Notes under the pieces: generated by a model | Databases searched by the model: none | What the model saw: the letters and a program-made list of their open reading frames with translations, nothing else | What the model was told of the DNA's origin: nothing | Origin: Nitrospiraceae bacterium | Lineage (GTDB): Bacteria > Nitrospirota > Thermodesulfovibrionia > Thermodesulfovibrionales > UBA6898 | Assembly: GCA_020347665.1 (NCBI GenBank) | Contig: CP070737.1 | Location: 2,011,081 to 2,058,805, forward strand | Direction of reading: 5' to 3' | Length of the DNA: 47,725 bases | Position numbers and translations under genes: made by a program | Shown: piece by piece, positions 10,300 through 16,745 of the stretch | Position numbering within the stretch: the stretch's first letter is position 1 | How the letters are laid out: each line of letters begins with the position of its first letter

Positions 10300-11049
10300 A
10301 TGGAAGGTAAGAATATGAGATGGCTCATCTTTGCAGCACTTCTCTTCTCTTTCAGTCTTCTGGCCGGTTGCGCTGGCATGGAATTCGCTCCGAAGGAACC
10401 CAGCCTTGTATGGTTTTATCCAAAGGAATTGCCAGCTGCTGAAAGGGCAGTCGAAGCCGCACGTCAGGCAGGAAAGGATAAAGAGTGTCCTGAGGCGTTT
10501 AATGAAGCCTATGCTATGAAAGAAGAGGCCTATAAAATATATTGGGACTGTCGTGATCAAGAGGCAATTGACATGGCAATAAAGGCGACTGAAAAGGCAC
10601 AGGCGCTCTGTCCGGTGATATCTGCTCCTGCTGTTCCTCCTGTTCCTGCACCACCTGCGCCACCTGCGCCGCCTGCGCCGGCAAGAAAGCCTGTACGTAT
10701 TATTCTTGAAGATATACATTTTGCCTTTGATACCGCAACGCTCAATTCGAGAGCCCTGGCGATACTGGATAGAAATGCCGAAAGAATAATGGACAATCCA
10801 TCTGTTTCTGTACAGATAGAAGGCCATGCGTGCGCTCATGGCACTGAGGAATATAACATGGCCTTGAGTGAAAGGCGGGCACAGGCTGCTAAAGAATACC
10901 TCATGAACAAAGGCATTGCTTCAAATCGCATGAGCACGATCGCATACGGTGAATCCAGACTTGCGAAACCGGAAATACCGACTCCTGACAACAAAGAGTC
11001 ACCTGAGGCCCGTGCGAACAGGCGTGTTCACTTTGAAGTTACAGAATAA
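10300..11049 (+). CDS. OmpA-family (Pal-like) outer-membrane lipoprotein
   Basis: The 249-residue protein has a lipoprotein signal with lipobox LAGC, giving lipidation at Cys24. A charged helical region (about 40-105) is followed by a Pro/Ala linker with repeated PAPP units (about 108-126) and a C-terminal OmpA domain (about 132-247). The OmpA domain shows IHFAFDTATLNSRALAILD, VQIEGHACAHGTEEYN and ALSERRAQAAKEYL, the segments that bind diaminopimelate in peptidoglycan. It should tether the outer membrane to the wall. A near-consensus promoter, a strong AAAGGAGGG ribosome binding site and a dedicated terminator imply an abundant, monocistronic product. The proline linker is a natural spacer across the periplasm. 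Confidence 0.92.
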   Translation: MEGKNMRWLIFAALLFSFSLLAGCAGMEFAPKEPSLVWFYPKELPAAERAVEAARQAGKDKECPEAFNEAYAMKEEAYKIYWDCRDQEAIDMAIKATEKAQALCPVISAPAVPPVPAPPAPPAPPAPARKPVRIILEDIHFAFDTATLNSRALAILDRNAERIMDNPSVSVQIEGHACAHGTEEYNMALSERRAQAAKEYLMNKGIASNRMSTIAYGESRLAKPEIPTPDNKESPEARANRRVHFEVTE

Positions 11050-11050
11050 G

Positions 11051-11098
11051 ACAAAAAAACCCTCCGGCTTTTTTTGCAGGCCGGGGGGTTTTTTTTGT
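11051..11098 (+). terminator. Intrinsic terminator after the OmpA-family lipoprotein gene
   Basis: CCCTCCGGC (11060-11068) pairs with GCCGGGGGG (11080-11088, one G-T wobble), extended by an A-run before and an eight-T run after the stem. It ends only a few bases before the next gene's ATG at 11105, so that gene either uses read-through or lacks a visible promoter of its own. Confidence 0.9.
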
Positions 11099-11104
11099 CC
11101 GGAC

Positions 11105-12844
11105 ATGAAAAAAGGTGTTATAGGGATTCTTCTCTTGCTCCTGCTTTCATGCGCCCCAAAGGTTATCGTTGAACCTGAAGTAAAACTTCCAATTGGACCT
11201 GAAGTAAAACCTCCAAGCATTCCTCGGGAGTACAGGACTTCCCTTGTCTGTAAGGAATACACAAAAAAATATTTTAATAAAATCGGATTGGATGTACTTC
11301 CTTTTTCGAGGTTGGTTTTTTTTGATATTGATAAAGATGGCACTCTGGACATGATAACAGGCAGCAAAGATGGTTTGCTTCGCCTGTACAAGAATTCAGG
11401 TAGTTTTGATAACCAGAGATGGAATGTTATTAAAGGATATTTCGATCAAATATCGGTAAATGCCTTTTCATCGCCGGCGATCGGTGATATAGATCTTGAT
11501 GGGACAGTTGAAATCCTCGTCGGTTCGGGTGGCTTTTCTTCTAAATCAGGACAGATTCACATTTACAGGAATACAGGAGATGCGCTACACCCTGCGTGGT
11601 CAAAATTGGACCACGCGGAAATAACCGTCGGCAATGATGCAACCCCGGCACTGTTTGATATAGACCGGGATGGGCGACTTGATATTGTTGCCGGCAATTC
11701 CAGTGGTAATCTTTTCTTATTCAGGAATGAATCAGAGGGTACAGAAATATCGTTTCGTGAAATCAAAGGATATTTCAGGAATATGGATCTCGGTATGTAC
11801 GTGGTTCCCGCAGTGACATCAATGGATGATGCGGTGATAATCGTCGTCGGTAACAGTGAGGGCAGTCTGTACATACTCGAGAAACAGTCTTCTGATCGGG
11901 CATTTGGACTGACGCGTCATATACCAAAAGCATTGGGGAGTTTTGCATCTCCGACATTTGTGCTTCAGGCAGATTCCGTGCGCAAAGATATGGTGATTGT
12001 GGATGGCAAAGGACATCTGCATTATTTTAAGAATGAATTTAACAACATTTCAACGTGGGCTGAAGTGCCTGATTTCTTTGGTGGCCGAATATCACCCGGG
12101 CCAGCATGTGCGCCATCTTTTATTGCCTTAAACGGAAGTTCTTATATGGTTGTTGGCACGATCAGTGGGACATTAAAGCTGTTCAAACATAACCGATCAT
12201 CGCCCGGGCTTCCATGGGTTGAGATCCTGGGACATTTCAGAAGAATTAACCTGTCCGGCTTTTCCAAAGGAGTGTTAACCTATTTTCAGGAGAAACAACT
12301 CCTTATCACAGGACAGCAGGATGGACCCCTCAAGGCTTTTCTGAATTTTGGAAATATGGAATATCCTCTTTGGACAGAACAGACCAGATTTTTTAATGGA
12401 TTGCCAAACATGCCTCATGCCGCTCCGGCAGTGTTTGACCTTAATGGTGACGGTCGATGGGAACTGCTCGTCGGAGATGCGCGGGGATATGTCCACGCTT
12501 TCCGTTATCGTATAACAAAAGACGGACAGATGGAATGGATCAGGCTGGAAAACGGATTCGAATACGTTAAGGTTAAACAGTATGCCATCCCTACACTTTT
12601 TCATGATGAGGACAAAATTATCATGCTCGTTGGCCAGCAAGATGGCCGGTTAAGTATATTTGCAGCCCAAGCGAATAAGCGGGAATATCCGGTTTTTCAT
12701 CAGGAAGGTTATATAGATAACATTCAGGTCAATAATCACAGCGCGCCTTCGGCCTTTAACGAATCCGGAATTATCAACCTCATTGTGGGAGATTATGATG
12801 GAAATCTCAAGAATTTTGCCTGTGCAAGAAAAACAGATGATTAG
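11105..12844 (+). CDS. Lipoprotein with FG-GAP/VCBS-type beta-propeller repeats
   Basis: The ATG at 11105 is chosen because MKKGVIGILLLLLLSC gives a clean lipoprotein signal with Cys16 as the lipid site; the open frame extends further upstream only through the neighbouring gene and its terminator. The 579-residue mature chain contains repeated blades with calcium-loop motifs: FFDIDKDGTLDMITGSKDG, IGDIDLDGTVEILVGSG, LFDIDRDGRLDIVAGNSSG and VFDLNGDGRWELLVGDARG. Such propellers mediate extracellular or periplasmic binding. Intervening blades have lost the Asp loop but keep the VGxxxGxLxxF ending. It has no recognisable ribosome binding site and follows directly on a terminator, which points to low or conditional expression. 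Ligand is unknown. Confidence 0.82.
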   Translation: MKKGVIGILLLLLLSCAPKVIVEPEVKLPIGPEVKPPSIPREYRTSLVCKEYTKKYFNKIGLDVLPFSRLVFFDIDKDGTLDMITGSKDGLLRLYKNSGSFDNQRWNVIKGYFDQISVNAFSSPAIGDIDLDGTVEILVGSGGFSSKSGQIHIYRNTGDALHPAWSKLDHAEITVGNDATPALFDIDRDGRLDIVAGNSSGNLFLFRNESEGTEISFREIKGYFRNMDLGMYVVPAVTSMDDAVIIVVGNSEGSLYILEKQSSDRAFGLTRHIPKALGSFASPTFVLQADSVRKDMVIVDGKGHLHYFKNEFNNISTWAEVPDFFGGRISPGPACAPSFIALNGSSYMVVGTISGTLKLFKHNRSSPGLPWVEILGHFRRINLSGFSKGVLTYFQEKQLLITGQQDGPLKAFLNFGNMEYPLWTEQTRFFNGLPNMPHAAPAVFDLNGDGRWELLVGDARGYVHAFRYRITKDGQMEWIRLENGFEYVKVKQYAIPTLFHDEDKIIMLVGQQDGRLSIFAAQANKREYPVFHQEGYIDNIQVNNHSAPSAFNESGIINLIVGDYDGNLKNFACARKTDD

Positions 12845-14029: not shown

Positions 14030-14287
14030 ATGGATATACTGGTATATAGTACGCCAAGATGACGGGATTGCAACGCACTGAAAGATTATCTTTCAGCAAG
14101 AGGAATACCTTTTATGGTTAAGGATGTTGCTACTGATCCCGCAGCGCGAAAAGAACTCATGAGCAAATACGGGAGAATGGCTACCCCGACTCTGGTAATT
14201 GGAGACAGAATGTTTCTGGGCTTCAGGGAGAATAGGGAAGAAATTGAAAGATTACTCGACTCATTATCAGGAGGTACGGATGTCTGA
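14030..14287 (+). CDS. Glutaredoxin-family protein with in-frame TGA at the first active-site Cys: probable selenoprotein
   Basis: With TGA at 14060-14062 read as selenocysteine (U), the frame from ATG 14030 gives 85 residues: [25 protein letters not shown], and onward to the stop at 14285. This is a complete glutaredoxin. A strand and STP precede the redox motif, U11-R-D-C14 stands exactly where CxxC is expected, and the conserved cis-Pro loop ([11 protein letters not shown], about 50-60) and GF motif follow. A short hairpin lies 22 bases after the TGA, as a bacterial SECIS requires. The gene overlaps the start of copA by 8 bases and contains its ribosome binding site, so translation through the TGA would couple to copA. 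No good ribosome binding site precedes ATG 14030. The alternative is a nonsense mutation, but the exact position at the catalytic Cys argues for selenocysteine. Confidence 0.75.
14063..14096 (+). promoter_or_regulatory. Candidate bacterial SECIS hairpin after the in-frame TGA
   Basis: CTGAAAG (14078-14084) pairs perfectly with CTTTCAG (14090-14096) around the loop ATTAT. The loop begins 22 bases after the TGA, within the 16-37 range known for bacterial SECIS elements. If the closing G-C pair opens, the loop begins with G, another usual feature. Only the apical stem is strong. Confidence 0.55.
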
Positions 14288-16745
14288 CGATCCTTCAGCA
14301 GTGGAACGCCGATGTGACCTGCCGATTACCGGCATGTCCTGCGCTTCGTGTGCAGCGACAATTCAGAAAGCCCTGATCGGACACCCCGGTGTTACAGCCG
14401 CTGAGGTAAATTTTGCGGCTGAGAAGGCTTCTGTCACATATGATTCATCTGTTGTCTCTCTGAATGACCTCATAACGATCATTAAAGGTCATGGGTATGA
14501 TGTTACCTATTCTGAAATCTTGCTGCCAATTAAAGGCATGACCTGTGCCGCATGTGTAAAAACTGTGCAGGACTCGCTTGCTCTGGTCGATGGGGTTATA
14601 GCAGTCTCAGTGAACTTTGCGACGGAAAAGGCTTCCATTTCATATTTTCCTGATCATACAGGGATAAGGGAATTCAAGAAAGCCGTGAGGGAAGCAGGTT
14701 ACGACGTCGTAGAGGCTGATACAGGCGAGGACATTGTAGAAAAAGAACAGAAAGAGCGTGAAACTGCTTATCGCAGGTTAAAGAAAAAAGTCCTCTTGGG
14801 AGCTTGCTGTGCGATTGCGATTTTCGCTTTGGTGCTCTGGGATAAGATCGGTTTATCGAATGTAATAGCCTTATCAAAACAGGCAAACGTTCTTTTACAG
14901 CTTTTTATCGCAACTCCTGTCCAATTCTGGATTGGCTGGCAGTTCTATGCAGGAGCAGTTGCTGCGGCCCGGCACAAGACAACGAATATGAACACGTTAA
15001 TAGCTATAGGAACAACCGCGGCATACCTCTATAGTTTGGTAGCGACTTTTTTCCCATTCGTCTTTGAATTAAAAGGATACAGTGCTCATGTCTACTATGA
15101 TACTGCTGCAACCATTATTGTCCTGATACTCCTCGGCAGGCTTTTTGAATCCAGAGCAAAAGGACAGACGTCCGAGGCAATCAAAAAACTTATTGGATTG
15201 CAGGCTAAAACAGCGCGCATTCTGAAAAATGGTAACGAGGAGGATATCCCCATTGAAGATGTCGAGATCGGCGATATTGTTGTTGTGAAGCCGGGTGAAA
15301 AAATTCCGGTGGATGGAGTAATAACAGAAGGTTACTCATCTATTGATGAATCAATGGTTACGGGAGAATCCATTCCGGTCGAGAAAGAAATCGGCGATCA
15401 TGTAATCGGGGCAACATTCAACAAGACTGGGTCATTCAGGTTCAAAGCCGTGAAGGTTGGACGTGATACAATGCTTTCCAGCATAATTCAGATGGTACAG
15501 TCCGCACAGGGTTCCAAACCTCCCATTGCTCGGTTGGCAGATATTATTGCATCTTATTTCGTCCCTGCTGTTATTGGTATTGCAACGGTCACTTTTTTTA
15601 TATGGTATTTCTTCGGTCCGTCACCTGCCTTTACCTATGCGGTACTTAATTTTATCGCCGTACTAATTATCGCCTGTCCATGCGCACTCGGCCTTGCTAC
15701 CCCTACTTCCATAATGGTTGGTACCGGAAAAGGTGCGGAAAACGGAATACTCATCAGAAGCGGGGAGGCACTTGAAGTGGCACACAAGATTGATACCCTG
15801 ATCTTTGACAAGACCGGAACACTCACAAAAGGAGAACCGGAAGTGACTGATATTATATCCTCTGCGTTGTCAGAACGCGAGATACTCTTCTACGCTTCTT
15901 CTGCTGAAAAAGGCTCAGAGCATCCACTGGGTGAAGCGATCATCCATAAGGCGCAAGAAGAAAATATCGAAATGATCAGTGCCAGGGATTTTCAGGCTGT
16001 CCCGGGGCATGGCATCAAAGCCACCGTAGACCATAAAAAGGTACTTCTCGGCAATGAGAAACTGCTCGAGAATGAGGGTGTTCGGGTCAGAGACTTCGAA
16101 CATCATGCCAAGACACTGTCAGCTGAAGGGAAAACACCCATGTTTCTTAGTATCGATGCGCGTATTGCCGGCATTATCGCGGTTGCTGATACCCTGAAAG
16201 AAGATTCTCACCGAGCGGTAAAATCCCTTTATGCCATGGGTATCGAGGTTGTAATGATAACAGGTGATAACAGAAGAACGGGCAATGCGATCGCTCGTCA
16301 GGTAGGCATTAAACGGATACTTGCCGAAGTCCTTCCCGAAGATAAGGCACGTGAGGTCAAAAAACTCCAGGGAGAAGGCAAGACGGTTGCGATGGTTGGT
16401 GATGGAATAAATGACGCACCGGCTCTTGCCCAGGCAGACATCGGTATCGCCATCGGGTCGGGGACAGATATTGCGATGGAGGCTTCAGATATAACCCTTA
16501 TTGGAAGTAGTCTGAAAGGAGTCGTCGGTGCAGTATTACTTTCAAAAGCAACATTGAAAAATATCAGGCAAAACCTTTTCTGGGCCTTTGCCTATAATGT
16601 AACTCTGATCCCTGTTGCTGCCGGCTTGTTATTCCCGTTTTTCGGAATACTGTTGAACCCGATGTTCGCTGCAGCTGCAATGGGCATGTCATCGGTTACC
16701 GTTGTCACCAATGCTCTTCGTCTGAAACGTGTCAGCCTTACCTGA
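14280..16745 (+). CDS. copA: Copper-translocating P1B-type ATPase
   Basis: CopA exports Cu(I) from the cytoplasm. The ATG at 14280 is chosen over upstream codons because AGGAGG lies 6 bases before it; this gives 821 residues, normal for the family. Two N-terminal HMA domains carry GMSCASC (Cys21/Cys24) and GMTCAAC. The membrane motif CPC is at 466-468 ([11 protein letters not shown]), the phosphorylated Asp510 is in DKTGTLT, and the ATP-binding HP (SEHPLGEAI) and hinge GDGINDAP motifs are intact. An [12 protein letters not shown] near the C-terminus matches Cu(I)-site residues of the last helices. It overlaps the glutaredoxin gene, so the two are co-expressed; thiol or selenol reduction of Cu(II) or of the metal-binding cysteines is a plausible link. 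Confidence 0.95.

Follow-up and report, generated by a model that had tools for sequence, protein, structure and literature searches.

A predicted selenocysteine redoxin encoded by a frame that overlaps copA in a clade of Nitrospirota

Results

A redoxin frame with one internal TGA overlaps copA

The locus studied here lies within a window (the whole stretch of DNA analysed, 47,725 nucleotides) and consists of two overlapping genes on the forward strand. The first of these (14030-14287, with the ATG at 14030 assumed to be the start codon) is a frame of 86 codons that has a TGA stop and, in its translation, a single internal TGA. It codes for a predicted glutaredoxin/NrdH-like redoxin of 85 residues that contains selenocysteine (Sec, U). 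No clear ribosome binding site was seen by eye ahead of the redoxin ATG. The internal TGA is codon 11 (14060-14062, forward strand), which comparison with orthologues places at the first active-site position, where it is read as the U of a UxxC motif (STPR-U-RDC). The second cysteine of this motif is the TGC of codon 14 (14069-14071, forward strand), which is invariant in both of our alignments. When read with Sec the frame also shows the redoxin landmarks MATPT and, near its end, FLGF. Within MATPT, the codon for Pro53 (14186-14188, forward strand) is invariant in alignments A1 and A4, and this residue is presumably the cis-proline of the thioredoxin fold.

The second gene is copA (14280-16745, forward strand), which codes for a Cu(I)-type P1B ATPase of 821 amino acids (TIGR01511, 636.7 bits against a cut-off of 397). 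A domain search places two HMA domains at the CopA amino terminus, one with the motif GMSCASC (about 14325-14501) and one with GMTCAAC (about 14526-14705). The redoxin stop and the copA start share eight bases, ATGTCTGA (14280-14287, forward strand), and a strong Shine-Dalgarno sequence for copA, AGGAGGT, is located inside the redoxin frame (14269-14275, forward strand). A preliminary description of this DNA had reported the frame, its one internal TGA, the U-RDC motif, the cis-Pro in MATPT, the eight-base overlap and the presence of the copA ribosome binding site within the redoxin frame, all of which are borne out by our re-reading.

The same description had called the protein a glutaredoxin, a label that needs qualification. 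With C written at the TGA, the protein passes the Pfam Glutaredoxin model (PF00462) at 56.7 bits, where the cut-off is 22.9, with an E value of 2.8e-15. However, its best NCBIfam match is of the YruB type and falls under the cut-off (GlrX_YruB, TIGR02196, 74.1 bits against 88.55), and glutathione synthetase (PF02955) was not found in the organism's own contig, which is 91% complete. Indeed, all 11 NCBIfam models that matched, with GlrX_YruB followed by Uxx_star, NrdH and others, gave scores under their cut-offs. These include the UXX-star models NF041212 (40.8 versus 66) and NF041211 (36.8 versus 100) as well as NrdH-redoxin TIGR02194 (38.6 versus 85.75).

The structure predicted with Cys substituted for Sec has a strand-helix-strand-helix-strand-strand-helix redoxin (thioredoxin/Grx) fold with a mean pLDDT of 89.3. 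Among the best seven matches by fold, the nearest solved structures are BC3987 and cGrx1, at 34-41% identity and 1.1-1.2 Å, and a profile search of solved structures ranks 7c10 (cGrx1) first. We take cGrx1 (PDB 7c10 and 7c12) to be the selenoprotein glutaredoxin of Clostridium (Alkaliphilus) oremlandii. It shares 40-41% identity with the redoxin, superposes on our model at 1.1 Å over 75 columns, and likewise is a single domain with two-residue active-site spacing. Unlike cGrx1, the present family has an invariant U-x-D-C and an invariant GF, and the available portions of the cGrx1 literature mention no link to a copper ATPase. The redoxin also resembles the UXX-star (NF041212, NF041211) and GlrX_YruB (TIGR02196) families in its first-position Sec and related profile, but it scores under all of their cut-offs. 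Its active site is UxxC, whereas the available text of PMC13188914 gives UxxT for UXX-star 1 and GxGU for UXX-star family 2. Finally, in regard to NrdH-redoxins, there is likeness in size and fold, as well as in a genome that has thioredoxin reductase and no detectable glutathione synthetase, but the redoxin scores far under the NrdH cut-off and its neighbour is copA.

The internal TGA is invariant among full-length orthologues

Orthologues were searched for in the organism's own genome and in 60 relatives. Full-length orthologues, with E values below 1e-19, were present in 18 of the 60 relatives (16 of the 26 from the same family and two from another family of the order), and every one of the 18 has exactly one TGA, at the same codon. 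L041 was read separately and was excluded from alignment A1. These near relatives belong to the Nitrospirota and for the most part come from metagenome bins. Of the same-family genomes, nine of 26 gave no match and one of 26 has a truncated copy; this last, G001, is the nineteenth genome and retains the 5' part of the redoxin only. Lesions other than the TGA, which the preliminary description had said would tell against its reading, therefore amount to this one truncation, the 18 other copies among the 60 relatives being intact apart from the TGA. The stop-free matches, at E 1e-6 or weaker, come from redoxins that are less closely related.

A phylum-wide search gave 25 matches at 1e-12 among 395 genomes, of which 20 form a strong group (E below 1e-30). 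This group has 18 copies with TGA and two with Cys, both of the latter from a different family of the order. The motif used in the phylum-wide reading was not matched by L160 and L164, which were left out. In the named genomes there are 26 loci, which comprise 22 full-length Nitrospirota copies, two from Bacillota, one truncated copy and one unrelated match (L130 from Fluviispira, dropped at 31% identity over 48 residues). The alignment of homologues that the preliminary description had proposed as a check shows a Sec codon or Cys at the active-site column in all 24 full-length loci, with TGA in 22 and Cys in two (L113 and L120). Note that the counts from the 60 relatives and from the named genomes overlap, L027 and L105 for instance being the same protein, and are not additive.

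The codons that follow the TGA were also compared between the window and loci picked from the 22 with TGA. Over the 25 codons after the TGA the third position changes most in 10 of 10 comparisons, and crude dN/dS ranges from 0 to 0.50 with several comparisons saturated. The weakest case is that of the nearest locus, L105, which has 4, 7 and 8 changes by codon position and a crude dN/dS of 0.50. The third-position excess indicates that the stretch after the TGA behaves as coding sequence under protein constraint. A general use of TGA as a sense codon is unlikely, given that a TGA terminates the redoxin ahead of copA and that Cys replaces the internal TGA in L113 and L120.

Other Sec redoxins were observed in these searches. 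L161, L162 and L163, from a different family of the same class, have a distinct Sec redoxin with the motif YSQPGUIFC. The two Bacillota loci, from a Bacillaceae bin and Vulcanibacillus modesticaldus, have a Sec redoxin with the motif TRPTUTDC and a ten-residue insertion (L127 5001-5255 and L128 5001-5252). A truncated Sec redoxin (L046/L129) keeps the TGA and the hairpin described below; its likeness stops a few residues past the hairpin, the frame ends about 20 residues later, and L129 has no copA match.

A conserved helix follows the TGA

A SECIS-like hairpin (14078-14096, forward strand) is formed by an 8-bp stem (14078-14085 with 14089-14096) and a three-base loop (14086-14088). Its first stem base is the 16th after the TGA, in agreement with the preliminary description. 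Bacterial SECIS elements usually have a G early in the loop, and none is seen there in the hairpin of the window.

Tests based on folding energy gave little distinction. Relative to shuffled controls, the hairpin stretch shows no more than a moderate gain in folding (z of -2.28, -2.20 and -1.49 at three lengths). Measured against synonymous recoding, the regional folding energy in the window is no better than that of recoded sequence (fraction 0.21), and it is not unusual in 20 of 24 Sec rows. The 24 rows comprise the window together with the 22 TGA loci of full length and one truncated copy, L129; L124 and L125 do not differ in this region. A count of pairs specific to the helix, adopted after the energy test had come out null and set against 5000 synonymous recodings that followed local codon use, shows that the 8-bp helix of the window exceeds synonymous recoding (P 0.028). 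At least seven of the eight stem pairs form in 23 of 24 Sec rows, and P is below 0.05 against synonymous codons in 20 of the 24, the remaining four being L111, L121, L122 and L123, of which L123 is a Sec copy that lacks this helix. The helix is not enriched in either of the two Cys rows (L113 and L120, P 0.25 and 0.48). Since the rows are related, these per-row P values are not to be multiplied.

Pairing was also counted on 21 distinct rows, with L125, L123, L129 and the Cys rows L113 and L120 excluded beforehand. The stem is paired in 96.4% of cells, as compared with 45.2-68.5% after a shift of the partner strand by 1-3 columns. Of five covariation measures, three were above all 500 shuffles, namely the score itself, the number of paired cells and the number of cells with a change on both sides (5). 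The other two were no better than shuffles, with pairs changed on both sides (2) matched by 97 of 500 and further pair types by 500 of 500. On balance, comparison of these sequences supports the conserved helix as a putative SECIS-like element.

The genome contains selA, selB and two selD genes

The source genome is a single contig of 2.25 Mb that is 91% complete. It has selA (605.8 bits), selB (373.5 bits) and two selD genes (358.6 and 347.5 bits), all above their respective cut-offs. The selD genes are at G000:C1:1050450-1051373 and 1382656-1383582 (L024 and L025), and both carry an in-frame TGA in the GUAAK active-site motif. This indicates that other recoded UGAs, and with them Sec, are to be expected elsewhere in this genome.

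The search for Sec machinery that had been proposed earlier was thus successful for selA, selB and selD, but tRNA-Sec (selC) was not found in the 2.25 Mb, 91% complete contig with Rfam, a family-specific model or a pattern, or with ARAGORN near the sel genes. Specifically, the Rfam tRNA-Sec model gave 10 matches in the organism's own genome, all under the cut-off, and each of the eight that were run in ARAGORN is an ordinary tRNA. A model built from 11 tRNA-Sec genes of the family had a tRNA-Ser as its only match in the contig. The tRNA-Sec pattern gave 24 matches against five for the reversed pattern, with ARAGORN calling no tRNA in the 20 that were run. The available text of PMC8124441 describes a groundwater Nitrospirae lineage in which tRNA-Sec partly overlaps selB, an arrangement that was not found in the present genome. 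Across the family, a match above the tRNA-Sec cut-off occurs in 20 of 27 genomes, one of which (G020, L095) is tRNA-Cys by ARAGORN, leaving 19; the 11 of these 19 that were run in ARAGORN were all called tRNA-Sec. A tRNA-Sec was also not found in four other redoxin-bearing genomes (G007, G012, G016 and G020), a pattern that may reflect assembly gaps. A separate observation is that long tRNA-Cys(GCA) genes score above the tRNA-Sec cut-off at L095, L102, L103 and L104 (G020, G014, G001 and G003, respectively); one possibility is that these resemble tRNA-Sec but bear a Cys anticodon.

Taken together, the sel genes, the TGA that is invariant in 18 of 18 orthologues, the Cys in two more distant members (L113 and L120) and the conserved SECIS-like helix give strong support to the prediction that the redoxin TGA is decoded as Sec, as had first been proposed.

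The redoxin and copA are linked throughout one clade

In one clade, made up of the window and 15 named loci, the copA start can be placed between -11 and +1 relative to the redoxin stop at every one of the 16 loci, if one GTG start is allowed; several loci also have alternative starts. These 16 copA-linked loci make up one side of a branch with support of 96/98; rows that fall in no tree group (L117, L118, L127 and L128) were not counted. Adjacency and overlap of the two genes are kept across seven genera of one family, so the pairing of redoxin with copA noted in the preliminary description is real and conserved in this clade.

Four of the seven named loci of a second Nitrospirota family have copA some 0.4-0.6 kb downstream; two of the seven have no copA within 3.5 kb downstream, and in one the contig ends first. 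Neither of the two Bacillota loci has copA within 5 kb. The absence of copA near some homologues indicates that the redoxin does not serve CopA only.

Other neighbours were also observed. In two of the four second-family loci with a nearby copA, L112 (5326-5514, reverse strand) and L119 (5290-5478, reverse strand), a convergent gene for a 62-residue single-cluster 4Fe-4S ferredoxin is situated between the redoxin and copA. On the upstream side, the window has a large FG-GAP-like repeat frame (10949-12844, named by eye), and long lipoprotein-like frames are similarly placed in L106, L110, L122 and L125. The similarity of these frames suggests that synteny may be kept upstream as well.

Discussion

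The explanation that we favour, and consider probable, is that this locus codes for a Sec redoxin made by UGA recoding, which forms a two-gene unit with copA and functions as a thioredoxin reductase-driven reductase of the CxxC copper sites. The Sec part of this explanation is far surer than the copper part. In such a system SelA, SelB and SelD, together with the SECIS hairpin just after the UGA, would insert Sec to give a UxxC redoxin, encoded by what would be the first gene of a unit with the Cu(I)-exporting ATPase. The redoxin would keep the CxxC motifs of both amino-terminal HMA domains of CopA reduced, thereby enabling them to bind Cu(I) and hand it on, and the copper-binding cysteines of CopZ-like chaperones, for which the genome has three small stand-alone HMA frames, may be kept reduced in the same way. 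The selenolate would attack disulfides and Cys14 would resolve them, with electrons coming from thioredoxin reductase, which is present in the genome above its cut-off. Because glutathione synthetase was not detected, the redoxin probably works with this reductase and not with glutathione. The overlapping stop and start would match the levels of redoxin and CopA. Sec insertion, tRNA-Sec, the electron donor and the substrate are the parts of this mechanism that we infer.

Conservation of the arrangement in several genera suggests that a selenium protein services a copper pump. There is a precedent for a redoxin acting on copper-site cysteines, as the available text of PMC5039574 reports that human Grx1 speeds the redox equilibration of Atox1 and acts on ATP7A/B, which offers a functional parallel in the form of a CxxC redoxin that maintains the cysteines of copper sites in the reduced state. 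Human Grx1 differs in being eukaryotic, glutathione-dependent, equipped with Cys and not Sec, and not co-encoded with its ATPase. Selenium is also paired with a metal ATPase in the Sec-containing cation ATPase noted in the available text of PMC9312934, but there the Sec is within the ATPase, whereas here it would be within a separate redoxin. The available text of reviews (PMC13188914, PMC9312934) covers Sec glutaredoxins of the UxxC kind, UXX-star proteins and a cation ATPase that contains Sec, and has no mention of a Sec redoxin joined to copA. Nor was such a description found in titles and abstract openings among the matches listed, with few subscription journals covered. The redoxin chemistry and fold are known; the subfamily and its conserved copA partner appear to be new.

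A possible though less likely explanation is that the protein is a general redoxin, either NrdH-like or with peroxiredoxin or MsrA as substrates, that is found before copA merely by descent in one clade. Strict adjacency to copA is indeed confined to one clade, and homologues without an adjacent copA occur in another Nitrospirota family and in Bacillota. Moreover, cGrx1 of Clostridium oremlandii is said to serve MsrA, and a 2011 title by Kim et al. refers to a selenoprotein glutaredoxin adapted to reduce a selenoprotein MsrA. However, descent in one clade fits less well with adjacency and overlap that span seven genera of a family, or with the nearby copA in four of the seven loci of the second family.

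We consider it unlikely that the redoxin is instead a Cu(I) carrier, in which the soft selenolate of U-x-x-C would bind Cu(I) and pass it to CopA. That the gene stays physically linked to that of a Cu(I) ATPase, and that UxxC resembles a metal-binding pair, would suit a carrier, but a thioredoxin fold with a cis-Pro fits a reductase, and the three CopZ-like frames indicate that the genome probably already has a carrier.

The junction of the two genes raises the issue of control by selenium. The overlap suggests translational coupling, and if ribosomes terminated at codon 11 the 217 bases up to the copA start would go untranslated, whereas the strong Shine-Dalgarno sequence of the window points to initiation of copA on its own as well. 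A dependence of copA translation on selenium through such coupling is possible. A stronger form, in which the Sec redoxin arose as a dedicated and obligate partner of the Cu(I) exporter and the UGA at codon 11 gates copA so as to tie copper export to selenium status, joining the homeostasis of the two elements at the level of translation, appears doubtful. More doubtful still is that the overlap is mainly regulatory, with Sec insertion gating copA translation by selenium supply and the redoxin being in part a sensor leader. An abutting or overlapping junction in all 16 clade loci speaks for such gating, but the Shine-Dalgarno sequence of the window copA may permit independent translation, conservation at the protein level shows that the redoxin itself is selected, and short overlaps are common in bacterial operons in general. 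Regulation of this kind is compatible with the reductase that we favour, as the alternatives are not all mutually exclusive.

Lastly, that this is no selenoprotein at all is highly improbable: no tRNA-Sec was found in the contig and a 57-residue frame does begin at an ATG after the TGA (14114), but the recurrence of the TGA in all 18 relatives whose copy is full-length rejects a pseudogene and, through many separate copies, excludes in practice the sequencing error considered in the preliminary description, initiation at the later ATG is countered by conserved residues between the TGA and that codon and by the absence of Met at this site from the 17 remaining rows of A1, and the genome has other Sec genes as well as sel machinery.

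We conclude that a redoxin-copA arrangement, very probably with Sec in the redoxin active site, occurs in a group of mostly uncultured Nitrospirota, and that gene callers which do not allow for Sec would shorten or overlook this redoxin in environmental Nitrospirota genomes. If our reading is true, it would be a bacterial counterpart of the link between redox and copper export that human Grx1 forms with ATP7A/B, with selenium as the catalytic atom. It would also be a natural case of a recoded UGA upstream of, and perhaps gating, a metal-detoxification gene.
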